A stretch of 64,000 nucleotides of DNA from Rhodospirillales bacterium. Lineage in GTDB: Bacteria > Pseudomonadota > Alphaproteobacteria > Acetobacterales > Acetobacteraceae. A program made the position numbers and the translations under genes. The stretch is taken from positions 1-64,000 of the forward strand of contig CANFKS010000004.1 of assembly GCA_947447625.1 (NCBI GenBank), read 5' to 3'. The notes below the pieces were generated by a model that was not told the origin of the DNA, did not search any database, and worked only from the letters and a program-made list of their open reading frames with translations. This document shows, piece by piece, positions 1 to 14,223 of the stretch (positions within the stretch are counted from its first letter, which is position 1; every line of letters starts with the position of its first letter).

Positions 1-1247
1 ATTTGCTGGCGCTCACCATACACAACAAGCTTCGGCGATATGGTACGCTGGTTGCCGGCCGAGAAATCGAGCCCGCCGGTGAAACCGGTGGTTTTCCGGT
101 TCGAGCCCTGCAGGGTCTTGAGGAATTTCTGCAACGCCTGCTGCATTGCGCCCGGATTTTCCAGCGAGAATGTGCCTTGTGCCTTCTGATCGGCGATGAA
201 GCTCGAAATCAGGAGGCCTGCGTCATAGCCGTAGGCATAGGCCCAGCTTGGGTCGTTGCCGTCATGCTCGCCGCGGTACATGTTGATGAAGCGCTGGCTT
301 TCCGAACTGGCAACGCTCGGAGTGAAGGGTACCAAACTCACGATACCGTTTGAATAGAAGCCCAGCTTGAGCGCTTCGCGGGGCTCGTCCTTGAACCGTT
401 GGGCAAAGAATTCCAGTGACGATTCGCCTTCGGTCATGATTGGGCCGGCGTAGCCGAAGTCCCGCAACTGCTTGACCGCAATGACGGCGGCGTCCATCGG
501 CAGTGAGATCACGATTGCGTCGCTGTAGATGGCTCGGGAGATCAGCTCATCGACTGCCGATTCGGTGGGTTGCGCGGGCCAGGTCAAGCGGCTTTGATTG
601 GAAGACGAGACATTTCCATTGGACCTGACATCTCTGTAGGACGAAACGAGACCGTTCCAGAACCCTTCATCCGACGTGCCGTCCGCGACCAGTTGAACGA
701 TCGCCGGCCCATCGGTGATCCGCTGCACCATGCGCCCGAGCATGAAGCCGTTTTTGAACGCCTCGGGCTGCAGAGTGAACATCCAATCGCCATTGGCGGT
801 CTCGGTTGTGTTGCCGATCGGAGCCAGCGCAACAACCGCACCCTCATTGGCCGCATCGCGAACCCCCGCGAACCCCATCGGTTCCGTCGGGCCGACGATG
901 GCCAAGGTATGAAAGCCGGCTGCCGATCCCTGAGCCAGCGCAACGGCGGCCGCGGCGCGGCCTTCGTCATTGCGGATCACCATGCGCACGTCCCGGTCGG
1001 CACCGCCGGCCCGGATGGCGTCCTCGAAGCCCGCGCCCATGTCTTTGCCGATGAACTGGGTCGGCCCTGATGTGTCGGTGATCAAGACGACATCGAGCGG
1101 CGCCAGTTTTTCTCCGTCGGTCCGGCGCTCGACAATCCGATCGCGCAGGCCGACCAGCCAGGGTGTGACGATGTAGCCGGCCTGAACCGACAGCAGCAGG
1201 CTTATCGCCAATGCGATAAACCCGGTATGACGCGAGGCAATCTGCAT
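1..1247 (-). CDS. Periplasmic binding protein-like (branched-chain amino acid ABC type), partial at left edge
   Basis: Reading the minus strand from ATG 1247 gives at least 415 residues with no stop before the window edge. The N-terminus has one hydrophobic segment (about residues 9-28) followed by a positively charged stretch, then a Leu/Ile/Val-type periplasmic binding fold: VVLITDTSGPTQFIGKDMGAGF, GFHTLAIVGPTEP and YAYGYDAGLLISSF resemble Peripla_BP_6. No clear signal-peptidase site is seen, so the segment may be an uncleaved anchor. Since the end is missing, this could be a free ABC substrate-binding protein or the extracellular sensor half of a larger receptor. Base composition is less GC-rich than in the rest of the window. 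Confidence 0.7.
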   Translation of the reverse strand, partial: MQIASRHTGFIALAISLLLSVQAGYIVTPWLVGLRDRIVERRTDGEKLAPLDVVLITDTSGPTQFIGKDMGAGFEDAIRAGGADRDVRMVIRNDEGRAAAAVALAQGSAAGFHTLAIVGPTEPMGFAGVRDAANEGAVVALAPIGNTTETANGDWMFTLQPEAFKNGFMLGRMVQRITDGPAIVQLVADGTSDEGFWNGLVSSYRDVRSNGNVSSSNQSRLTWPAQPTESAVDELISRAIYSDAIVISLPMDAAVIAVKQLRDFGYAGPIMTEGESSLEFFAQRFKDEPREALKLGFYSNGIVSLVPFTPSVASSESQRFINMYRGEHDGNDPSWAYAYGYDAGLLISSFIADQKAQGTFSLENPGAMQQALQKFLKTLQGSNRKTTGFTGGLDFSAGNQRTISPKLVVYGERQQ

Positions 1248-1302: not shown

Positions 1303-2139
1303 CTAGGCTTCTGTCCCGATGGCTTCGAGCTCGTGCTTGCGGGTGGCTTTATCGAGAGACGCGAGCGGAAGGCTGACGAAAATGCCGATCCGGCTGTGCA
1401 GGCGGCCATAAAGTGCGTTGAGTGCCGTGGTCTCGGCGTCATCGATCAATGCATCGGCCCATTGGCCACCCAAGGGCCAGTTCGCCATGACCGGTCGGCC
1501 AGGAAACTGGGCGGTGATCCAGGGATCGACCGGTTCGTCGAGCCAGATGACGAAATCCATCGATGGAGCCTCTGGCAGCGCGAGGTCACGCCAGGATTTA
1601 CAAGCCAGGCGCGTGACATCATGACCGAGCGCGCGGAGTTTTGCGACCACTGTTGGCCGTGGGGCGGCGGCCGGGGCCAAGCCGGCCGAGAAGGCGCGAA
1701 ACATGCCGTGACCCACTTCGTTCAGGATGCATTCAGCAATCAGCGAGAGACCATCATTGCTCCGGCACAAGAAAAGAATGTTGAACGGTTGAATAGCGGG
1801 GCCGTTGCCGAGCCTTGACGGCGCCAAAGTCGGATGCAGTGCTGCCGTGATCGTGCTGGCCAAGCCCAGTTCGACGGTAAGAAAATCAATCGCCGCACCC
1901 AGCACCGCGGAATTTATCGTGTAGCATACAAAGCGGCCCCGGCGTTCGGAGCGGACCACGCTCTGGCTTTCAAGTGCGGCGATATGAAAGGATAGGGTTG
2001 TGATGGGGAGCCCCAGCCTCTCGGCGGCGATGCCCAGCGACAATCCGCTCCCCTCTGCCTGAGCCAGGAGACGCAAAAAATCGAGCCGTATTTTATTTCC
2101 GAGGGCATCGAGCAACAGGGCCGCAGATGATGTTTTCAT
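1303..2139 (-). CDS. ArsR-family HTH regulator fused to a degenerate LMW phosphatase/arsenate-reductase-like domain
   Basis: About 278 residues from ATG 2139. Residues ~1-85 are an ArsR-type winged helix (LLLDALGNKIRLDFLRLL, then LPITTLSFHIAALESQSVV as the recognition helix). Residues ~118-265 resemble low-molecular-weight tyrosine phosphatase/ArsC, with ILFLCRSNDGLSLIAE at the P-loop and AFSAG after it. The P-loop keeps its Cys, but the arginine of CX5R is Leu, and the usual Asp general acid is not visible near MANWPLGGQ. Catalysis is therefore doubtful and a sensory role is more likely (inference). An in-frame ATG at 2178 lies inside the predicted -35 region, so 2139 is preferred. Confidence 0.8.
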   Translation of the reverse strand: MKTSSAALLLDALGNKIRLDFLRLLAQAEGSGLSLGIAAERLGLPITTLSFHIAALESQSVVRSERRGRFVCYTINSAVLGAAIDFLTVELGLASTITAALHPTLAPSRLGNGPAIQPFNILFLCRSNDGLSLIAECILNEVGHGMFRAFSAGLAPAAAPRPTVVAKLRALGHDVTRLACKSWRDLALPEAPSMDFVIWLDEPVDPWITAQFPGRPVMANWPLGGQWADALIDDAETTALNALYGRLHSRIGIFVSLPLASLDKATRKHELEAIGTEA

Positions 2140-2195: not shown

Positions 2196-2509
2196 ATAAC
2201 CGACGTAGAGACCCGAGCCGGACACGCGCTCAGGTTGTCGGCCTGCTCGCGGTAGAATCCAAAGGCCTGCTTGGTGGTCAGAGCGTTTGTCATATGCCGG
2301 AAACGGGATGAAGGGGCGGGCGTTGCAGCGACCGCTCCGCGGTTCGACGCGATTTGACTTCTGGGTTCGCTTATCGCGGCGAGCGTATTGCAAGTTCGAT
2401 CTCGGTTGACCGGAAGATGGCTGCTGGATATCTTAATGCCCTGGCCAAGTCGATTCGTTGGATTTCAGCGAAGAGCGACGTGCCTCCTTTTTCGAAAGTA
2501 GAAGATCTT

Positions 2510-3955
2510 ATGAAACTTGACGCAATCCAGTTTTGGGCAAGGCACCGTCCAAACGCGATAGCATTGAGCAGCAATGGCGAGATCACCTATCGGATTTTCG
2601 ATCAGTCCATCAATAAGGTCGCGGCCGGTTTGCAGAGGTTCGATCTGCCCAAGAGTGGTATCGTTGCTGTTCAGGCCGGATCTTTGTCATATTTATATTT
2701 AATCGAACGTGCGCTTGATCGGATGGGTCTGACCACTGCGATCGCTCCAAACGGGGTCTCACCAGCCGATCCGTTCCGGTTTTTGGAACCGGAGTTTTTT
2801 TTGACATTCGAAGAGGCGCACCTCAAATCGCATCCGAAAGCCGCACTCCTGTCCCGCGAATGGATAAGCGATGTCATGAACGGGCCGGCAGTTCCGCCGC
2901 CAGCATATAAGCAACGCCCCCAGGATATTATTCGGATCATGCTTTCTTCAGGGACGACGGGAAAGCCCAAGAAGATACCGATCACGCGCGCCGCCCAGGA
3001 ATACCGGCTCAGCAAGGCCAGCGTCGGCATACGAAATGGATATAACGCAGACGAGAGAATTGTCGTAACCATGGGACCTGACAGTGTTGCTGGGTTCTTA
3101 TGGCCGATTTGGTGCTGGTCTACGGGCGGCTGTGTTGTAAATATTGACTTCCAAGAAATATATAGAGAAATCGTTCGTCTTCAGCCAAACAATGTATTTA
3201 TGTCAACCGGGCAGATGGAAGCGTTGCTCAAGACAATTCCAGATAATGCAAAACCTCTGGATGGCGTTAGATTTACGGTCGGTGGGAGCCCTGTAACCAA
3301 ACCCATTGCGCTGATGGTTGCGGAGAAGCTGACGAAAGATTTTTATATCATGTATGGGTCTGCCGAATTGGCCGCAATCTCCTTTGGACACGCTGACGTC
3401 CTCAATCGCAATGAACGCGCGGTTGGTTATGTTATGGCCGGGCGCGATGTGGAAGTCGTTGACACCGACGGAACAGCGCTCCCTGCGAGCAAGATTGGTA
3501 TTGTGCGGATACAGCAGGACGAGGCGTTCGTTGGCTATCTTGATGAGGACGATCAGACAGCGTCGTCGTTGCGGGATGGTTGGTTTTATCCGGGCGACCT
3601 CGGTGCGCTCAGCGAAGATGGCCTGCTGGTGATTGTCGGCCGCGTATCGGAAATCATGAATCTGGGCGGCACGAAAATCGATCCCGTGCTCATCGACGAA
3701 TTCGCCAAAACCATCGCTGGCGTCCGTGATGCGGCGGCTTTTTCGGTGCTGAACGATGCCGGCGTGGAATTCCCATGGATTGCCGTTGTGCGCGATGAGA
3801 GTTTTGATGCAGCCGAATTGCGGGCTCTGGTTCACGCCAAATGGCCCGTTTTGTCGACCGTGAGGCTCGCCTTCATCGATGCGATACCGCGCAACGGGAT
3901 GATGAAGGTCGAACGGGAGAAACTCAAGCGGCTGATTGCCGCGCCCCAACAATAA
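2510..3955 (+). CDS. AMP-dependent acyl-CoA synthetase/ligase family protein
   Basis: Adenylate-forming (ANL) enzyme: activates a carboxylate with ATP, usually passing it to CoA or a carrier thiol. From ATG 2510 it has 481 residues, shorter than typical 500-550 residue acyl-CoA ligases. Visible core motifs are LSSGTTGKPKKIP (P-loop), YGSAELAA, GWFYPGDLG, and a C-terminal PRNGMMKVEREKLK whose lysine matches the catalytic A10 Lys. The frame is open upstream with possible starts at TTG 2354 and ATG 2417; 2510 is chosen because family-like sequence (LDAIQFWARHRPNAIAL) begins there. Much of it is visibly AT-richer than neighbours, suggesting different ancestry. Substrate unknown. Confidence 0.82.
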   Translation: MKLDAIQFWARHRPNAIALSSNGEITYRIFDQSINKVAAGLQRFDLPKSGIVAVQAGSLSYLYLIERALDRMGLTTAIAPNGVSPADPFRFLEPEFFLTFEEAHLKSHPKAALLSREWISDVMNGPAVPPPAYKQRPQDIIRIMLSSGTTGKPKKIPITRAAQEYRLSKASVGIRNGYNADERIVVTMGPDSVAGFLWPIWCWSTGGCVVNIDFQEIYREIVRLQPNNVFMSTGQMEALLKTIPDNAKPLDGVRFTVGGSPVTKPIALMVAEKLTKDFYIMYGSAELAAISFGHADVLNRNERAVGYVMAGRDVEVVDTDGTALPASKIGIVRIQQDEAFVGYLDEDDQTASSLRDGWFYPGDLGALSEDGLLVIVGRVSEIMNLGGTKIDPVLIDEFAKTIAGVRDAAAFSVLNDAGVEFPWIAVVRDESFDAAELRALVHAKWPVLSTVRLAFIDAIPRNGMMKVEREKLKRLIAAPQQ

Positions 3956-3981: not shown

Positions 3982-4953
3982 TCAGGCAGCGCGGACGGTC
4001 GAGCGGGCCAGCAGATCGCCAAGATAGACCGCAAGCGCCCCCATGCCGGAGCGCGCGGTGCCGGCAATGCCCGCGCGGGTCTCGGCGTCCGGGTTGTAGT
4101 TGGTGTTGGTATTCACGTCATAGACCAGTGGTAATCCATCGGCGCCGACGATGAATTCGATGCCGGCGACATCGACGCCGGATCGTTCGAGAAAGGTTTC
4201 CAGACCGGCGCGCAGGCCAGGATCGATGCCATCGATGACCGTGAATTTATGGGCCGGACGATCCGCCTCCCCGCCGACGGGGCAGGCAAGGTCGCCGATG
4301 GCGCAGACATCGGCCGGGCAGAGTTCGAAACCCTCGCTGGTGTCGACCTCCACGGCATAGGTGAAGCGCCCCCCGGTGAATTCCGCACGGGTGATCACCG
4401 GGCGGGGCGCCTTGATATAGGCTTGGAGGAGTTGGATGCCATCGACGGGTTCGACATAATCGCTGCTCGCGGCGTATTCGCGCAGGCCCTCGATGGTATG
4501 GAAGAGTTGCACGCCGAGGCCCTTGCCGCCGCGGTTGGGCTTGAGGATGACGGGTTGGCCCGGAAAATGGCGGATTGCGCCGTCAACAATGGCATCGCGA
4601 CCGGCGATCATCACGGTGCGCGGCGTGCGGATGCCGGCGGCTTCGAGGGCCGCGTATTGGCGGATTTTGCTGATTTCCAGATCGAGCGCGGCCGGGCCAT
4701 TGACGACGATGCGGCCCCAGCGGACCAGCCAGGCGAGCACGCAGGCGGTGAATTCAGCGGAAAAGCGATGATCGCGGGTGTGCGAGGAGGCACTCATGCG
4801 GTTGTAGAACACGCCCTCGGGGGGCGGGGCGGACAGGTCGAAGGCGCCAGTGTGGAGGAACCACTCGGTCCAGGGCAGGGCGCTTGCATCGAGCGCATCG
4901 GCCAGGGGGGGAAGCCAGGCGGGATTTTCGTGGAGGACGTGGATGCGACTCAT
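3982..4953 (-). CDS. ATP-grasp enzyme, RimK/glutamate-ligase-like
   Basis: A 323-residue ATP-grasp protein: VILKPNRGGKGLGVQLF is the ATP-binding strand-loop and YDVNTNTNYNPDAE near the C-terminus supplies metal/ATP ligands. The family makes amide or peptide bonds through acyl phosphates; the substrate cannot be read here. The start at 4953 is supported by AAGGA seven bases upstream; the frame opens further upstream but without family resemblance. It is divergent from the CoA-transferase operon, with an AT-rich control region between. Confidence 0.78.
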   Translation of the reverse strand: MSRIHVLHENPAWLPPLADALDASALPWTEWFLHTGAFDLSAPPPEGVFYNRMSASSHTRDHRFSAEFTACVLAWLVRWGRIVVNGPAALDLEISKIRQYAALEAAGIRTPRTVMIAGRDAIVDGAIRHFPGQPVILKPNRGGKGLGVQLFHTIEGLREYAASSDYVEPVDGIQLLQAYIKAPRPVITRAEFTGGRFTYAVEVDTSEGFELCPADVCAIGDLACPVGGEADRPAHKFTVIDGIDPGLRAGLETFLERSGVDVAGIEFIVGADGLPLVYDVNTNTNYNPDAETRAGIAGTARSGMGALAVYLGDLLARSTVRAA

Positions 4954-5036
4954 GGGGTGTTCCTTCACGATTGTGGGTCGTGGTTTTAAATCCGGTTTCC
5001 ACGATATGAAGCTGATCATTGAATTCCACAAGCTTT

Positions 5037-5046
5037 GTGATATCAC
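5037..5046. promoter_or_regulatory. Palindrome GTGATATCAC in a divergent promoter region
   Basis: A perfect 10-bp palindrome inside an AT-rich island (about 4980-5065) between the ATP-grasp gene (start 4953) and the CoA-transferase gene (start 5149). The location suits an operator controlling both directions. No regulator gene is adjacent. Confidence 0.35.
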
Positions 5047-5148
5047 TAATTTTAATCGTGTTTCTGCGCGCGCCATCAGGCGGCTTTGTCAAAGCCGCGA
5101 AGGCTGCTTAACTCGCCGCCGTCCAGGACATCACAAAGAGCGAACCGC

Positions 5149-6315
5149 ATGACCCGCCCCCTCGCCTCCATCCGCGTGCTCGATCTCGCCACCACCATCG
5201 CCGGCCCCTATTGCGCGCGGCTGCTGGCCGATGCGGGGGCGGAGGTCATCAAGATCGAGACCGCCGAGGGCGAGTTGATGCGCAACCGGCCGCCCTATCG
5301 CAATGGCGCCAGCACCGCGTATGGGCAACTCAACGCCGGCAAGCGCAGCCTGGTGCTGGATCTGAAGCGGCCCGAGGCGGTCGCGATCGTCAAGCGCATG
5401 GTGGCGGAGGCCGATGTGCTGGTGGAGAATTTCCGCCCCGGCGTGATGCGGCGGTTCGGGCTCGATTACGCGGTGCTGCGGGCGATCAATCCGCGCCTGG
5501 TCTACACGGCGATTTCAGGCTTCGGGCAGACCGGTCCGTCCTCGGGGCTGGCCGCCTATGCGCCGGCGGTGCATGCCTCGTCCGGCTATGATCTGGCCCA
5601 TCTCAGCTACCAGCCGGGCCGGACGCGGCCGGATAATTGCGGGATCTATACCGCCGATGTGCTGACCGGCACCTATGCCTATGGCGCCACGATGACCGCG
5701 TTGTATCAGCGCCAGGTGACGGGGCGGGGGCAGATGGTGGATGTCTCCATGCTGGAATCGATGCTGACGCTGACGCTGGGCGAGGTGCAGGCGGCGCAGT
5801 TCCCGGTGCCGCCGCCGGGGCGGCCGATGTTCGGGCCGGTGGCGAGTGCGGATGGCTGGGTGATGCCGGCGGTGGCGAGCGAGCGGAGTTTCCAGAACCT
5901 TGCGGCCGCGGCCGGGCGGCTCGACTGGATCACCGATCCGCGCTTTGCCGAATATGGCGACCGGCGCGCGAATTGGGGGCAGTTGGTGGAGGAGTTGGAG
6001 GTGTGGTCGACCACCATGGCAACGGCGGAGGTGGAGGCGGCGCTCAATGCGGCGGGGGTGCCGTGTTCGGCCTATCGCAGCGTGGCCGAGGCGATCGCGG
6101 ACCCGCAGATCGCGCATCGCCAGGCGCTGGCCGAGGTGAAGGATGGCGGCGGGAGTTTCAAGGTGATCAATCCGCCCTATCGCCTGTCGGAGGGGGAGAC
6201 GTCCGTGCAGGGTTTCGCGGCGGCGCTGGGCGAGCACAGCCGGGTTGTGCTGGCGGAACTCGGCTATGACGCGGCGGCGATCGAGGCGCTGATCGCCTCC
6301 GGCGTCGCGGCTTGA
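5149..6315 (+). CDS. Family III CoA-transferase (CaiB/BaiF type)
   Basis: A 388-residue CoA-transferase that moves CoA between carboxylic acids. The N-terminal Rossmann-like block is typical (IRVLDLATTIAGPYCARLL, then GAEVIKIE), followed by LVLDLKRPEA, ADVLVENFRPGVMRRFGLDY and SGFGQTGP. The length fits the family. The start at 5149 fits where similarity begins; upstream in-frame codons lie in the divergent control region. First gene of a four-gene plus-strand operon (CoA-transferase, crotonase, FAD oxidoreductase, DMT transporter) with 26, 7 and 82 bp gaps. Substrate unknown. Confidence 0.9.
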   Translation: MTRPLASIRVLDLATTIAGPYCARLLADAGAEVIKIETAEGELMRNRPPYRNGASTAYGQLNAGKRSLVLDLKRPEAVAIVKRMVAEADVLVENFRPGVMRRFGLDYAVLRAINPRLVYTAISGFGQTGPSSGLAAYAPAVHASSGYDLAHLSYQPGRTRPDNCGIYTADVLTGTYAYGATMTALYQRQVTGRGQMVDVSMLESMLTLTLGEVQAAQFPVPPPGRPMFGPVASADGWVMPAVASERSFQNLAAAAGRLDWITDPRFAEYGDRRANWGQLVEELEVWSTTMATAEVEAALNAAGVPCSAYRSVAEAIADPQIAHRQALAEVKDGGGSFKVINPPYRLSEGETSVQGFAAALGEHSRVVLAELGYDAAAIEALIASGVAA

Positions 6316-6341
6316 TCCGCTCAGTTCAGGGAATTCGACAC

Positions 6342-7124
6342 ATGACCTCCTATGCCGATATTGCGGTTTCGCTGGATGACCGGGTTGGGCTCGTGGAAAT
6401 CCGCAAGCCGCCGCATAATTTTTTCGACGTCGCGCTGATCCGGCAGATCGCCGAGGCGTTCGAGGCCTTCGATGCCGACCCGGCGTGTCGGACCGTGTTG
6501 CTGGCGGCGCAGGGCAAGGCGTTTTGCGCCGGGGCGGATTTCAGCAGCCGCGGGGAGGATGGGGTGGAGCCGTCGGGCGGCGGGCCGGCGAAGCATCTCT
6601 ACAAGGAGGCGATCCGCCTGTTTCGCACCCGCAAGCCTGTGATCGCTGCGGTGCAGGGGGCAGCCATCGGCGGCGGGCTTGGGCTGGCCTTGGTTGCGGA
6701 TTTTCGGATCACCTGCGCCGAGGCCCGGTTTTCCGCCAATTTCAACCGGCTTGGGTTTCATCCCGGGTTCGGCTTGACCACCACCCTGCCGCGTCTGGTG
6801 GGGCCGCAGCAGGCGGCGCTGCTGTTCTATACCGGCCGGCGCATCGGCGGCGCGGAGGCGGTGTCGCTCGGGCTGGCGGATCAATTGGTGGCTGAGGGCG
6901 CGGTGCGCGATGTCGCGCGCGCCCTCGCGGTCGAGATCGCCCAATCCGCCCCGCTGTCGACGCAATCGACGCGGGAGACCCTGCGGCGCGGGCTCGCCGA
7001 TGCCATCGAAGCCGCGACCGAGCGGGAACTGGTGGAGCAGGAGTGGCAGCGCAAGACTGCCGATTTCCGCGAAGGTGTGAAGGCGATGGCGGAGCGCCGG
7101 CTGCCCGATTTCCAGGGGCGTTGA
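6342..7124 (+). CDS. Enoyl-CoA hydratase/isomerase (crotonase) family protein
   Basis: A 260-residue crotonase-fold protein. Oxyanion-hole regions are visible (KAFCAGADFSS and AAIGGGLGLALVADFRI). Aligning ARFSANFNRLGFHPGFGLTTTLPRLVG-type sequence by eye to hydratases, the two catalytic glutamates appear replaced (Phe and Phe), so simple hydration is unlikely; isomerase, decarboxylase or hydrolase activity is possible. The start at 6342 has AGGGA upstream; ATG 6312 would overlap the CoA-transferase stop. Its product is presumably the CoA ester made by the neighbouring transferase. Confidence 0.85.
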   Translation: MTSYADIAVSLDDRVGLVEIRKPPHNFFDVALIRQIAEAFEAFDADPACRTVLLAAQGKAFCAGADFSSRGEDGVEPSGGGPAKHLYKEAIRLFRTRKPVIAAVQGAAIGGGLGLALVADFRITCAEARFSANFNRLGFHPGFGLTTTLPRLVGPQQAALLFYTGRRIGGAEAVSLGLADQLVAEGAVRDVARALAVEIAQSAPLSTQSTRETLRRGLADAIEAATERELVEQEWQRKTADFREGVKAMAERRLPDFQGR

Positions 7125-7131
7125 GCCGGCC

Positions 7132-8424
7132 ATGACCCGCCTCGCCTTCCCCGATTATCCCGATCTGTGCGGCTGGAACGCGCTGTTGGCGAAGCGCGCG
7201 CCCAAGCCGCGGGCGGAGGGCGCGATGGCAGTGAAATATGCCGTCGTCGGCGCCGGCTATACCGGGGTTGCGGCGGCGCGGCGGCTGGCGGAGCTTGATC
7301 CGCACGCAGAGATCGTGGTGCTGGAAGCGAGCGATGTGGGCGAGGGGTCGGCCGCGCGCAACTCGGGCTTCGCCAGCCCGCGCGACATCCCGGCCACTGC
7401 CTCCGAAGCCGAGCAGCGCCACACCGCAGCCCTCAACCGGTTCGGTGAAGAGGGGTTCGGTTGGCTGGTCGGTCTGATGGCGGAGCATGGCATCGATTGT
7501 GGCCTTGAGCGGACCGGCCGTCTGAAGGGGGCCGCCACGGCGGCTGGCGCGCGGGTGGTCGAGGGGTTGCGCGCAAGCGCGCGCGATCTCGGTGTGCCGC
7601 ACGACTATCTCGACGCCGCCGGGATGGAACGCCGGATGGGCAGCCGCTACTACGGGTGCGGGCTCTATACCGAGGAAGGACATCTGTTGCAGCCCGCAGC
7701 GCTGATCCGCGGGCTTGCGGATTCGCTGCCGCCGTCGGTGCGGTTGTTCGAGCACAGCCCGGTGCGCGCGCTGCGCCGGGACACCAAATGGCGGCTCGCG
7801 ACGGAGGATGCGAGCATCACCGCGGAGTGCGTGGTGCTGGCGACCAATGCGGCGGTGAAGCAGTTCGGCTATCTGCGCGATCGCCTGGTGAGCATCTACA
7901 CCTATGCCGCCATCACCGAGGCGATGGCGCCGCAGGACGCAGCCCAGCTCGGCGGCATGGCCAATTGGGGCCTGCTGCCATCGCACCGCCTTGGCACGAC
8001 ACTGCGCCGCGTGGGGCCGGATCGGCTGATGGTGCGCTCCCTCTATGCCTATGAGCAGGGGCTCGATGCGCGACGCGTGCAGGAGACCCTGCGCGCCTGC
8101 TTCCATCGGCGCTATCCGGGTCTGCGCCATGTCGGTCTCGACTATGTCTGGGGCGGCACCACGGCGCTGACGATGAACGGCGCGCCGTGGTGGGGCAAAC
8201 TCGATGACGGGCTCTACGCCTCGGCGGGCTGCAACGGCGCCGGGATCGTCAAAGGCACCGTGCTGGGCAAGCGCCTCGCGGAACACATCACCGGCCATGG
8301 CACGCACGCCGATGTCGGCGCCACCTATGGCAGCGCGAGCCGGTTGGTGCCCGAGCCGTTCCGCCGGATCGGGTTCACCATCCTCTCCGCGATCGGCCGC
8401 CGCAAGGCGGGGCGCGAAGCATAG
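7132..8424 (+). CDS. FAD-dependent amine/amino-acid oxidoreductase (DAO family)
   Basis: A 430-residue flavoprotein. The dinucleotide-binding motif YAVVGAGYTGVAAARRLAEL sits about 35 residues in, preceded by the short N-terminal extension (WNALLAKRAP) seen in gamma-glutamylputrescine-oxidase-like proteins; EGSAARNSGFASPRD follows. The C-terminal YASAGCNGAGIVKGTVLGK is the FAD-closing segment. It probably oxidises a secondary or primary amine to an imine. Seven bases downstream of the crotonase stop, so co-transcribed. The pairing with CoA enzymes suggests catabolism of an amine that becomes a carboxylate (inference). Confidence 0.85.
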   Translation: MTRLAFPDYPDLCGWNALLAKRAPKPRAEGAMAVKYAVVGAGYTGVAAARRLAELDPHAEIVVLEASDVGEGSAARNSGFASPRDIPATASEAEQRHTAALNRFGEEGFGWLVGLMAEHGIDCGLERTGRLKGAATAAGARVVEGLRASARDLGVPHDYLDAAGMERRMGSRYYGCGLYTEEGHLLQPAALIRGLADSLPPSVRLFEHSPVRALRRDTKWRLATEDASITAECVVLATNAAVKQFGYLRDRLVSIYTYAAITEAMAPQDAAQLGGMANWGLLPSHRLGTTLRRVGPDRLMVRSLYAYEQGLDARRVQETLRACFHRRYPGLRHVGLDYVWGGTTALTMNGAPWWGKLDDGLYASAGCNGAGIVKGTVLGKRLAEHITGHGTHADVGATYGSASRLVPEPFRRIGFTILSAIGRRKAGREA

Positions 8425-8506
8425 AGCGCGAGAGCCGCGCCCTCTTCTCGCGGCGCGGTTCGCATGGCACACCGACCCACCGGTGCGGCCGGAGTGGAGA
8501 AAGCGG

Positions 8507-9424
8507 ATGAACAATCGGACGCCCGGCGCGTTGGTCGGTATGGGCGGTTATCTGATGGCCAGCCTGTTCTGGGGTTGGAACATTCCGCTGACATCGAACC
8601 TCCTGCGCCAGCTCGACCCGTTCTGGATCGCGCCGCTGCGCTACATCATCGCCGCGGTGGTCCTGGGCGTCATCCTGGTGGCGCGCGAGGGATGGCGCAA
8701 TCTGCGCGCGCCGGTGGCGCATTGGCGCGTTGCGGTGCTTGGGCTGTGCTGCGCCTGTTTCCTGGTTCTGTTCAACTTCGGCCTGCTTTACTCCAACGCC
8801 ATCACCGTCGCGGCCGTGATTGCCGGATCGCCCGTCTATGTCGCCCTGATCGCGCGCATCATGATCGGTGCCCGGCTGGAACGCGGCTTTCCGCTGGCCT
8901 GTGGCTTGACGCTGCTCGGCGCCGGCATCGCGATTTATGGCCGCGCCAGCAGTGCAAGCGAGGGTATCGGGATGCAGGGTGGCGAAATCCTGACCGTGCT
9001 CGCGATCGCGTGCTGGACGGTCTATTCGATCCTGGCGCAACGCTGGTTCCCCGTCGGCATCGGGCAGTTGCGCCGCACGGTGCTGACGACGGTATGGACG
9101 ATCCCGACTCTGCTGGTGTTCTGGGCCGCAGCCCGCCTCACCGGGCTTGCGCCGTCGCCCAATCTTGATCCGGGCGCCGCGGCGTGGCGCGACCTGGTGA
9201 TCACGGCGGCGTTCTGCACGGGCATCGCCACCGTCGCCTGGAACACCGGGGTGGCGCGCCTTGGCATCGCCACCGGGGCGATATGGCAAAACATGGTGCC
9301 GGTGTTCGCGGTGCTGATATCGATGCTGTTCTACGGCATCACGCCGCTGCCGGAGCACATCGTGGGCGGCGCGCTGGTGCTGTGCGGGGTGCTCTCCATG
9401 CAGTGGCGCAAGCTGCGGGGCTAG
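8507..9424 (+). CDS. DMT superfamily (EamA) transporter
   Basis: A 305-residue integral membrane protein with two EamA repeats and about ten hydrophobic segments (ending PEHIVGGALVLCGVLSMQW). The family exports or imports small metabolites such as amino acids. The start at 8507 has GGAGAAAG just upstream and matches the family N-terminus (GYLMASLFWGWNIPL); the frame is open upstream over the tail of the FAD gene. Last gene of the CoA-transferase operon, followed at once by a hairpin. Confidence 0.85.
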   Translation: MNNRTPGALVGMGGYLMASLFWGWNIPLTSNLLRQLDPFWIAPLRYIIAAVVLGVILVAREGWRNLRAPVAHWRVAVLGLCCACFLVLFNFGLLYSNAITVAAVIAGSPVYVALIARIMIGARLERGFPLACGLTLLGAGIAIYGRASSASEGIGMQGGEILTVLAIACWTVYSILAQRWFPVGIGQLRRTVLTTVWTIPTLLVFWAAARLTGLAPSPNLDPGAAAWRDLVITAAFCTGIATVAWNTGVARLGIATGAIWQNMVPVFAVLISMLFYGITPLPEHIVGGALVLCGVLSMQWRKLRG

Positions 9425-9427
9425 ATC

Positions 9428-9456
9428 GGGATGCCTGCGCGGTCGGCAGGCATCCC
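9428..9456. terminator. Hairpin terminator, GGGATGCC family
   Basis: A perfect 11-bp stem (GGGATGCCTGC / GCAGGCATCCC) with a 7-base loop, three bases after the DMT transporter stop and before the convergent SDR stop. No long T-tract follows. The same GGGATGCC..GGCATCCC stem recurs at 35651-35679, also preceded by TAGATC. Confidence 0.6.
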
Positions 9457-9486
9457 GCTCTCAGTTCCGCAGCGTGCGGGGGGGGG

Positions 9487-10254
9487 TCAAGCCGCGTAGT
9501 AGCCGCCATCGATGATGTGCGACGCCCCGGTCATGAAGGAGGCCTTGTCCGAACACATCCATACCACGGCCTCGGCGATTTCGTCCGCCGTGCCGAGCCG
9601 GTGCATCGGCACTTTGGCCATCAGCTCGTCATACCGCCGCTGCATGGTCTCATCGGTCATCGGTGTGGCGACATAGCCCGGATTGACGCAGTTCACCCGG
9701 ATTCCGTCCTGGGCATATTCCATGGCCGCGGTTTTGGTGAGGCCGACCACGCCGTGCTTGGCGGCGACGTAATGTGACGAGGCGGGCAGGCCGATCAGCC
9801 CGGCGATCGAGGCGGTATTGACGATCGCGCCGCCGCCATGGCCCAGCATGTGGCCGATTTCGTGCTTCATGCACAGGAACACGCCGCGCAGGTTGATCGC
9901 GATCATGGTGTCGAAACTGTCCTGGCTCATCTCGTGCGTGCGCCGGCCGACCGGCCCCGCGCCGCGCCCGCCGATGCCGGCGTTGTTGAAGGCGCAGTCG
10001 AGCGCGCCGAAGGCGGCCACCGTGCGCGCCACCATGGCGGCGACATCGGCCTCGATCGCCACATCGCCACCGAGCGCGATGGCCTGGCCGCCGGCGCTGT
10101 TGATGAGGGCCACGGTGGCTGCCGCGCTGTCTTCGGTACGATCCGCGACCGCGACACGGGCCCCTTCGCGTGCCATCATCACCGCGGTTGCCCGCCCGAT
10201 GCCGGACGCGCCGCCGGTCACGAAGGCGGTCTTGCCTGCGAGAATTCCTGTCAT
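9487..10254 (-). CDS. SDR-family NAD(P)-dependent oxidoreductase
   Basis: A 255-residue short-chain dehydrogenase/reductase. Visible motifs: TGGASGIG cofactor loop near residue 12, FNNAGIGG, catalytic Ser region (TASIAG) and SHYVAAKHG with the YxxxK pair, and the C-terminal TGASHIIDGGYYAA. Start 10254 has GGGGAGA upstream. It lies 62 bp behind the rhodanese gene on the same strand, so the two are probably co-transcribed. Substrate not determinable. Confidence 0.9.
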   Translation of the reverse strand: MTGILAGKTAFVTGGASGIGRATAVMMAREGARVAVADRTEDSAAATVALINSAGGQAIALGGDVAIEADVAAMVARTVAAFGALDCAFNNAGIGGRGAGPVGRRTHEMSQDSFDTMIAINLRGVFLCMKHEIGHMLGHGGGAIVNTASIAGLIGLPASSHYVAAKHGVVGLTKTAAMEYAQDGIRVNCVNPGYVATPMTDETMQRRYDELMAKVPMHRLGTADEIAEAVVWMCSDKASFMTGASHIIDGGYYAA

Positions 10255-10316
10255 GCTAGCTCTCCCCTGCGCCGGGTCGTTGATCGCCCGGCTGTGATGA
10301 TGATGTGGCGCCTGGC

Positions 10317-11189
10317 TCAGCCGGTTTCGATCGGCAGCGACGGATCGCGCGCCCATTCGCCCATCGAGGCGTCATAGAGCGTGAGGTCGTCGTAGCCGAG
10401 TTGGTGCAGCAGAAACAAGCCGATGGTGGCCGATATGCCACCGCCGCAATAGAAGATGACGCGCTTGTCCGGCGTGATGCCCTGGGCGTCGAACTTGGCC
10501 TGGGCATCGGCCAGGGTGGTGAAGCGCTTGGTTGCGGGATCGACCAGGGTGGCGGCCGAGACCTGGACGCTGCCCGGGATGCGGCCGGGCCGGCCGTAGC
10601 GGCTGGGCGCCGCGCCGCGGAACAATTCGTCGTTGAGCGCATTGACGATCGCCGTGCCGGGCTGGTGCAGCGCGGCGCGCACGATGTCGCGCTCGACGAA
10701 CAGGCCGGGACGGGGTGCTGCGACGAAGGTGGCGGCCGGGTAGCTGCGTGGTGCGCCGGCTGCGAGCGGGCGGCCCTCGTGTTGCCAGGCGTCAAACCCG
10801 CCATCGAGGACGGCAGCCTCGCAGCCCAGCGCGCGCAGCATCCACCAGAACCGGGTGGCCATCATCATGCTGCCGCGGCTGTAGAGCACAACGCGGGCAC
10901 CAGGGCCCACACCGTGGCGGCCGAAGGCGGCTTGCATCTGGGCAAGCGGGCCCATCATGAAGCGCAACGGCGTCGTCGGGTCGGAGAATTCGCCCTGGAT
11001 GTCGAGATAGCTGGAGCCCGGAATATGGGCGGCCTCGAACACCGCCAGCCCGGACACCGCGACATAGGGGACATCGACGCCCGGAGGGGGCGGCACGGTG
11101 GTGGTGGTGCAATCGAACAGCCGCAGCGCGGGGTCATCAAGGATGGCGGCAAGGTCGCTGGTGCTGATCAGGGCCTGCGGATCCCGCAT
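10317..11189 (-). CDS. sseA: Two-domain rhodanese sulfurtransferase (SseA type)
   Basis: A 290-residue tandem rhodanese protein. The C-terminal domain holds the active loop IFYCGGGISATIG (catalytic Cys in CGGGIS), close to the mercaptopyruvate sulfurtransferase pattern; the N-terminal domain lacks a Cys at the equivalent YSRGSMMM position and is structural. LDGGFDAW and the interdomain pattern are typical. It transfers sulfane sulfur from thiosulfate or 3-mercaptopyruvate to an acceptor. Start 11189 has GGGAGAGA upstream. Upstream partner of the SDR gene. Confidence 0.85.
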   Translation of the reverse strand: MRDPQALISTSDLAAILDDPALRLFDCTTTTVPPPPGVDVPYVAVSGLAVFEAAHIPGSSYLDIQGEFSDPTTPLRFMMGPLAQMQAAFGRHGVGPGARVVLYSRGSMMMATRFWWMLRALGCEAAVLDGGFDAWQHEGRPLAAGAPRSYPAATFVAAPRPGLFVERDIVRAALHQPGTAIVNALNDELFRGAAPSRYGRPGRIPGSVQVSAATLVDPATKRFTTLADAQAKFDAQGITPDKRVIFYCGGGISATIGLFLLHQLGYDDLTLYDASMGEWARDPSLPIETG

Positions 11190-11370
11190 GGCGTCTCTCC
11201 CTCATTGCTGTGCCGGCAGGCTCGCATGTCCGCACGATCCGCGCCAGCGTGCCCGCCTTGCCATCCCGGTGCGGAACCCTGGAGCCGATCCGGAGTGCGG
11301 CGCGATTGGTCCTGCATCGTGGCGTGCCGGCGGACTTGCAGCTTCCGCCTCGTGCTGGTCATGTGTGGGG

Positions 11371-12531
11371 ATGAGCGCATCATCCGCCGGCCGTCTTCCT
11401 CTCGTGCCGCTGTTTGCCCTGCTGGCCATCCGGGCGACCGGCGCCTTCCAGTTGCAGGCTGCAGCCGTTGCCGCGGCCTCGCTGATCGCCGATCGCGGCA
11501 TCAGCTATGCCGAGGTCGGCAGCTTGATGGGCGCCTATATGATCCCCGGCATCTTCGTCACCGTCCTGGGCGGGCTGCTGGCGGCCCGCATCGGGGACCG
11601 CCCGGTGCTGCGCGGCGCGATGATCCTGATGGCGGGCGGCGCCCTGGTATGCGCTTTTGCCGATAGTTTCGCGGGGCTCCTTGCCGGGCGCGTGATCTCG
11701 GGCTGCGGCGGGGTGGTGATGCTGATGCTGGTCATCAAGATGACGACCGACCGCTACGCCGGGCCGATGCTCTCGACGGCCTCCTCGACGGTGATCCTGT
11801 CATGGCCGATCGGGTTTGCGGCGTCGCTGGTGGTGCTCGGGCCGGTGGGCGAGACGCTCGGCTGGCGCTGGGTGCTGGGCCTGTCGGGGCTGCCGGTCGC
11901 GCTGGCGCTGGGGCTGACGTTTCTGGTCGGCCACGCCCCTGCCCTGCCGCCACGCGCCATCGGGGCGGTCGATCGTCGCGTCACCTGGCGGTTCATCGCG
12001 GCGGCGACCGGCAATTGGACGCTCTACAATGCCGGGTTCGCCGTCATGGCGGCATTTCTGCCCGCGTTCCTGATCGATGCCGGATATGCCGCCGCCTCCG
12101 CCGCGGCACGAGCGAGCATCGTGACCTGGAGCTTCGCACTCGCCATGCCGTTCTGCGGCTGGATCGCGGATCGGATGATCGGGCGCTCGGCCGCGGTGCT
12201 GGTGGGCGCGTTTGCGACCGGAGGCCTGATGCTCGTGGTCGCGCCCTCGGACGGCGCGTTGTGGGCGCTCGTGCTGCTCGGCATCGCCTACGCCGTGCCG
12301 CCCGGTGCGCTGACCTCGCAGGTCGGCGATGCCACGCCGCAGCCGGCGCGCGCGCTGGTGTTCGGGTGGTATAGTGCGGGATCGTATCTCGGTGTGACCG
12401 TCAGCTTGTGGATCGCCGGCGCCCTGCGCGATCACACCGGCTCCCCCAATGCACCGCTGCTGTTCGGCGGCGTTCTGATCCTTGCGATGCTGCCCTGCTT
12501 CGCCTGGTTCCGTGCCGAGGCCCGACGCTGA
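11371..12531 (+). CDS. MFS transporter
   Basis: A 386-residue major facilitator protein with about twelve hydrophobic segments, including GGLLAARIGDRPVLRGA at the loop 2-3 signature position. The open frame extends upstream to 11098, but that part is not membrane-like and overlaps the rhodanese promoter; 11371 begins just ahead of the first transmembrane helix. Resembles CynX/NarK-like uptake permeases in layout. Substrate unknown. Stands alone between the divergent rhodanese gene and the ABC-F gene. Confidence 0.8.
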   Translation: MSASSAGRLPLVPLFALLAIRATGAFQLQAAAVAAASLIADRGISYAEVGSLMGAYMIPGIFVTVLGGLLAARIGDRPVLRGAMILMAGGALVCAFADSFAGLLAGRVISGCGGVVMLMLVIKMTTDRYAGPMLSTASSTVILSWPIGFAASLVVLGPVGETLGWRWVLGLSGLPVALALGLTFLVGHAPALPPRAIGAVDRRVTWRFIAAATGNWTLYNAGFAVMAAFLPAFLIDAGYAAASAAARASIVTWSFALAMPFCGWIADRMIGRSAAVLVGAFATGGLMLVVAPSDGALWALVLLGIAYAVPPGALTSQVGDATPQPARALVFGWYSAGSYLGVTVSLWIAGALRDHTGSPNAPLLFGGVLILAMLPCFAWFRAEARR

Positions 12532-12603
12532 GGCCACGCCCTCCTTGCCTTCCAGCGCTGCCGTGCCATAAGCGCGCCGCAACCGCACCGAGCTTTTTGA
12601 CCC

Positions 12604-14223
<1,620 letters not shown>

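Follow-up and report, generated by a model that had tools for sequence, protein, structure and literature searches.

The gene at positions 1303-2139 (minus strand) of the window, the whole 64,000-nt stretch of DNA that was analysed, encodes a 278-residue protein. With a probability of about 0.53, we regard it as related to, but diverged from, the ArsR-ArsC fusion repressors, and as a protein that has abandoned arsenic chemistry, carries a pseudo-enzyme domain, keeps DNA binding and controls its neighbours. The protein is probably reused to control other genes, because its shape and DNA-reading part are kept while most of the residues that sense or reduce arsenic are lost. Its preliminary description as an ArsR regulator fused to a phosphatase/arsenate reductase domain is well supported by the HTH_20 score, the match to the ArsC fold and end-to-end homology to known fusions. 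The reading frame is intact, with zero internal stops, and the codon-position G+C (0.631/0.495/0.677) keeps codon periodicity. Homologues align from the ATG at 2139, which was chosen as the start over a longer alternative, the TTG at 2178.

Residue counts given below refer to 183 homologues, consisting of 130 loci, 29 further loci from a class search and 24 from a phylum search. The class and phylum additions are the best-scoring fetched loci of those searches, some weaker or partial matches of the other searches are not among the fetched loci, and two loci without a strong match (L033 and L034) are excluded from the counts. Three of the 183 loci are identical, some are ArsC-only partial matches, and in 10 the matched stretch is interrupted by a stop, probably because arsR and arsC are distinct genes lying side by side. 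The analysis of near-invariant columns was limited to 143 full-length, stop-free homologues.

Residues 1-90 (1870-2139, minus strand) form the ArsR-type winged-helix DNA-binding domain. Residues 13-64 match Pfam HTH_20 with 35.4 bits (cutoff 27), and the N-terminal part matches the As(III) repressor AfArsR (6j05) at E 3.4e-10. The NCBIfam HTH_metalloreg score, 45.1 bits, is below the cutoff of 55, while an intact relative in the same genome scores 58. VIA-align 2 placed residues 1-102 of the predicted model on 6j05 with a Z of 14.7 and an rmsd of 2.7 over 99 aligned residues. Seven of the eight near-invariant residues of the DNA-binding domain are retained, and the recognition helix is almost identical to that of arsenic-sensing relatives. 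The winged helix would thus still bind DNA as a dimer, as the retained residues suggest.

The hinge that follows (residues 88-117; 1789-1878, minus strand) has no cysteine, and the As(III)-binding CC...C motif is absent. Three cysteines are found in this region in 113/143 homologues and none in 15/143, so that loss of the As(III) site in the ArsR part is also met in a minority of homologues.

Profile and predicted-fold matches assign residues 118-275 (1315-1788, minus strand) to the thioredoxin-type ArsC / LMW-phosphatase fold. Sequence profiles are of limited use in this region. The C-terminal part scores 16.8 bits against Pfam LMWPc, under the curated cutoff of 23.2, and profile scores discriminate poorly here because the intact relative likewise falls short of the NCBIfam ArsC cutoff (41 vs 174.3 bits). 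A sequence match to 8p5n was obtained at E 1.4e-05. The AlphaFold model, which used 49 sequences and leans on aligned active homologues, has a mean pLDDT of 88.9 and a low-confidence linker at residues 103-113. With VIA-align 2, residues 118-258 of this model superpose on D. indicus ArsC2 (8p6m; Z 19.0, rmsd 1.6, 130 aligned residues), and residues 117-257 on pI258 ArsC with a Z of about 17.

The active site of this fold is altered at several places. A profile alignment to the B. subtilis and pI258 ArsC proteins equates residue 125 with the P-loop Cys, residue 131 with the P-loop Arg and residues 201 and 209 with the redox-helix cysteines. The P-loop, CRSNDGLS (residues 125-132; 1744-1767, minus strand), keeps Cys125, Asn128 and Ser132, and Arg131 is replaced by Leu (codon 1747-1749). 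Arg occupies this column in 130/130, 29/29 and 24/24 homologues, 183/183 in all; the joint alignment of the 183 has 182 rows with Arg, the remaining row being partial and gapped there. The preliminary description had noted a kept Cys and a missing essential Arg, which Cys125 and Leu131 bear out, and the loss of the P-loop Arg recurs in none of the 183 homologues surveyed. Losses that it had not mentioned are those of both resolving cysteines and of the As(III) cysteines. In the redox-helix region (residues 201-209; 1513-1539, minus strand), Asp201 and Thr209 stand in columns that the joint alignment fills with Cys in 183/183 homologues and in 182/183 with one gap, respectively. Pairwise alignments had hinted that a few homologues lack a resolving Cys; this was dismissed, as the joint alignment has Cys at 201 in 183/183.

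The Pro-Asp-Pro loop is replaced by Gly-Gly-Gln (residues 224-226; 1462-1470, minus strand). Column 226 is Pro in 181/183 homologues and Gln here, whereas column 225, Gly here, is more variable, with Asp in 169 rows, Gly in 12, and one row each with Lys and with a gap. The acid Asp is therefore absent, as had been proposed, but its absence is not distinctive, since 12/183 homologues with normal cysteines carry Gly at that place. These twelve fusions (L003-L005, L009, L035, L036, L038-L040, L043, L044 and L054) have normal redox cysteines and feature Pro-Gly-Pro instead of the Pro-Asp-Pro acid loop, an active-site change that is not discussed in the excerpts of the ArsC and fusion literature cited here. 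Neither an Arg nor an Asp is present at the active-site positions of the 1303-2139 protein, and the dead-enzyme reading stands. That the ArsC domain would be catalytically dead is well supported by these replacements.

Asn128, Ser132, Glu136, Ser151 and Lys181 are also retained. In pI258 ArsC these residues lie close to the P-loop, and the loop may therefore still form. Lys181 belongs to a column that is invariantly Lys in the fusion family (130/130). The corresponding position of pI258 ArsC is an Asp that helps bind potassium; in the fusions, the Lys may stand in for the metal ion.

The 1303-2139 protein shares 29-46% identity with the fetched relatives. No orthologue was found in the genus (5 genomes, including its own), family (200), order (395), class (385) or phylum (398) sets, which overlap and are samples above the genus level; the best match besides the protein itself is 46% identical. 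A contig scan with the protein yielded no confirmed relative among 74 pattern matches, in a set from which the window's own and very near genomes may be absent. Matches in a plasmid search all fall under 60% identity, and reach at most 38.3% among the 40 of 1562 records listed. The lack of an orthologue in these sets counts against the reading as a reused regulator. The terminal branch is 3.3 in the IQ-TREE phylogeny (median 0.15), in which the placement of the protein is not fixed, and 1.67 in the FastTree phylogeny (median 0.13). A branch of such length is what relaxed selection would also give.

One other match (E 0.001 or better) occurs in the same genome, a full-length fusion at G000:C17:1666-2490 that is 41% identical and carries normal motifs. 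Of its six cysteines (residues 91, 92, 99, 125, 201 and 209), the 1303-2139 protein, the cysteines of which are residues 72, 125, 137 and 180, with none beyond 180, shares Cys125 only. In this locus (L002, on G000:C17), the intact ArsR-ArsC fusion (1501-2325) is followed by GAPDH and an ArsJ-like transporter frame (2340-3825), as NCBIfam models show for the latter two. The GAPDH matches the ArsJ-associated GAPDH model with 528.1 bits (cutoff 450), and the next frame, incomplete in the fetched stretch, matches the ArsJ model with 176.2 bits over 128 residues (whole-protein cutoff 400). The GAPDH/ArsJ arrangement has been described in arsenate resistance (PMC6205960), and the locus of the intact relative is an arsenate-resistance operon of this kind.

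The visible neighbours of the gene at 1303-2139 are not ars genes. Upstream, and divergently oriented, lies an AMP-binding / acyl-CoA-ligase-type gene assigned by domain matches (2417-3955, plus strand). On the other side, a gene for a periplasmic-binding-protein-like product (Peripla_BP_6; 3-1247, minus strand) runs off the contig end; if started at the ATG at 1247, which we chose, it lies 55 bp downstream of the regulator gene. The other 4 genomes of the genus contain nothing that matches the binding-protein gene at E 1e-20, and 59/59 other genomes nothing that matches the ligase-type gene at E 1e-60. The closest ligase relative in the genome collection, from a Caulobacteraceae MAG, is 48% identical, and no homologue of the regulator or of the binding protein was found within the fetched flanks of 79 ligase relatives (best 80 of 301). 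The G+C content is 51-62% from base 1 to about 4000, and 64-70% from about 4000 to 14000. Because the ligase and binding-protein genes are without matches in the relatives searched, and the G+C content is low, we infer that the regulator, binding-protein and ligase genes make up a recently acquired or strain-specific segment. Next to the ligase gene, positions 3982-4962 encode a RimK-like ATP-grasp protein that scores 47.8 bits with NCBIfam rimK_fam (cutoff 143.4) and has no Pfam match.

The divergent intergenic region contains a perfect inverted repeat with 7-bp arms and a 6-bp spacer (2176-2195), a weak candidate operator. The repeat is unique in the genome at up to 1 mismatch, and an arm of equal or greater length arose in 145/1000 Markov samples; with a single genomic site and this Markov frequency, a role as a regulon-wide operator is unsupported. 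One promoter-like match for the regulator gene was detected, which is weak and overlaps the start codon. Some intact fusions, including those of L004, L011, L014, L015, L025 and L047, carry a TTTC...GAAA dyad in the last 22-26 bases before the start, plausibly the operator of the family. A typed consensus of this dyad falls within 3 mismatches in 18/49 of the relatives' upstream regions, and the upstream region of the own-genome relative is 7 mismatches away from it. Even with 3 mismatches allowed, the consensus does not occur in the window, an absence that says little, because it fits just 18/49 relatives and misses the own-genome relative by 7.

The altered protein might be the product of an incipient pseudogene, in which a redundant gene is decaying neutrally and no stop codon has arisen so far. 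The long terminal branch, the lack of a detected orthologue, the intact fusion encoded elsewhere in the genome and the equal divergence of both halves are all in keeping with such a copy. That the ArsC half decays faster than its HTH counterpart was considered and rejected, as the two halves are nearly equal in their identity to the consensus (0.467 and 0.468), with a C/N divergence ratio of 0.997 vs a mean of 0.82 (sd 0.21). The frame, in contrast, is intact at a divergence that would usually have broken it: among neutral point-mutation simulations run without indels to the same amino-acid divergence, about 59%, with the own-genome relative as ancestor, only 17/2000 are without a stop. Codon periodicity is also kept, and so are 24 of the 32 columns that are at least 97% invariant among the 143 full-length fusions, more than uniform retention would leave (p 0.001). 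The next most deviant row loses 5/32 columns, which were defined on those very rows. Two of the eight lost columns are conservative changes (L61V and V121I), the others being R131L, C201D, D202E, C209T, P210A and P226Q. The strict catalytic columns (125, 131, 201, 209 and 226) are kept in 1/5 cases vs 23/27 for the others (Fisher p 0.0086), and a wider catalytic set in 3/9 vs 21/23 (Fisher p 0.002), both sets having been picked from ArsC chemistry after the alignment was seen. Since the losses are centred on catalytic residues, and frame and codon periodicity are intact, a folded, de-arsenicated regulator is favoured over a decaying copy. Reuse is more likely than neutral decay, and we consider the incipient pseudogene unlikely.

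If the protein is such a reused regulator, its C-terminal ArsC fold would be a pseudo-enzyme that, from the chemistry of the family, should not bind and reduce arsenate, as it has neither the P-loop Arg nor either of the resolving cysteines. Release from DNA on As(III) in the AfArsR manner would not be expected either, because the CC...C hinge is missing. The retained ArsC fold would most likely serve as a structural or effector-binding module, and the regulator would most likely control its own gene together with its two neighbours, the divergent ligase gene and the binding-protein gene, as their position suggests. A Leu (Leu131) and Asp129 stand in the P-loop where an oxyanion would sit, and a phosphate or arsenate ligand is therefore disfavoured. 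The preliminary description had suggested that the domain may have become a ligand or redox sensor. With neither resolving cysteine left, a disulfide redox relay of the ArsC type is ruled out; Cys125 may still act as a lone-thiol sensor, or the pocket may take a non-anionic ligand. Tentatively, and with a probability well short of even, the pseudo-arsenate-reductase might thus be a sensory domain in which a non-anionic ligand, or a reaction at the lone Cys, switches the ArsR domain within an acquired metabolic module. The ligand may be, for example, a compound tied to the adjacent acyl-CoA-ligase-type enzyme or to the binding protein.

A narrower proposal is that of a thiol or redox sensor, in which oxidants or electrophiles would modify Cys125, by itself or together with Cys180 or Cys137, and so alter DNA binding. 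Cys125 is indeed the sole cysteine retained of the relative's six, residues 128, 132, 136, 151 and 181 are kept around it, and the potential partners are rare in the family (Cys at 137 in 3/130 and at 180 in 6/130). Both classical resolving cysteines are gone, however, and so is Arg131. The P-loop Arg helps lower the pKa of the nucleophilic Cys. We consider a thiol sensor decidedly unlikely. The protein could also be a dominant repressor that is blind to arsenic, one that has kept its hold on the ars operator and sets a floor for the operon of the intact fusion. The closeness of its recognition helix to that of arsenic-sensing relatives would suit this role, but the window has no copy of the dyad of some relatives within 3 mismatches, a comparison of little power given that 18/49 relatives fit; we hold such a repressor, too, to be decidedly unlikely.

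ArsR-ArsC fusion proteins have already been described (PMC6205960, PMC6514093). A literature search of titles and the beginnings of abstracts retrieved neither an ArsR-ArsC fusion whose P-loop Arg had been lost nor a fusion member missing the As(III) site together with the catalytic residues. The kind of fusion is thus known, and the variant stripped of its As(III) site and catalytic residues appears to be new and comes from one genome. If the protein still regulates, a sensor-enzyme fusion can shed its sensing and catalytic chemistry yet keep its architecture, the outcome being a regulator with a pseudo-enzyme effector domain, for which the intact fusion of this genome offers a natural control. 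Should the protein only be decaying, the case is ordinary.

Three known systems provide the closest comparisons. The winged helix is common to the 1303-2139 protein and to AfArsR, the As(III) repressor of Acidithiobacillus ferrooxidans (6j05; Z 14.7, 32% identity), whereas equivalents of Cys95, Cys96 and Cys102, which bind As(III) in AfArsR (PMC8470949), are missing. The predicted fold of the C-terminal half is like that of the thioredoxin-type ArsC proteins of S. aureus pI258, B. subtilis and D. indicus (ArsC2; 1ljl, 1jl3, 8p5n and 8p6m; Z 16.5-19.0). Cys10, Cys82 and Cys89 are the three redox-active cysteines of ArsC (PMC2714181); the nucleophilic Cys and the P-loop Asn and Ser are retained, while the equivalents of Arg16, Cys82 and Cys89 (PMC2714181) and of the Asp-Pro pair are gone. 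Although it lacks the As(III) cysteines, P-loop Arg, resolving cysteines and Asp-Pro of the ArsR-ArsC fusions, and its visible neighbours are not ars genes, the protein equals these fusions in domain order and length, and is homologous to them from end to end in one frame.
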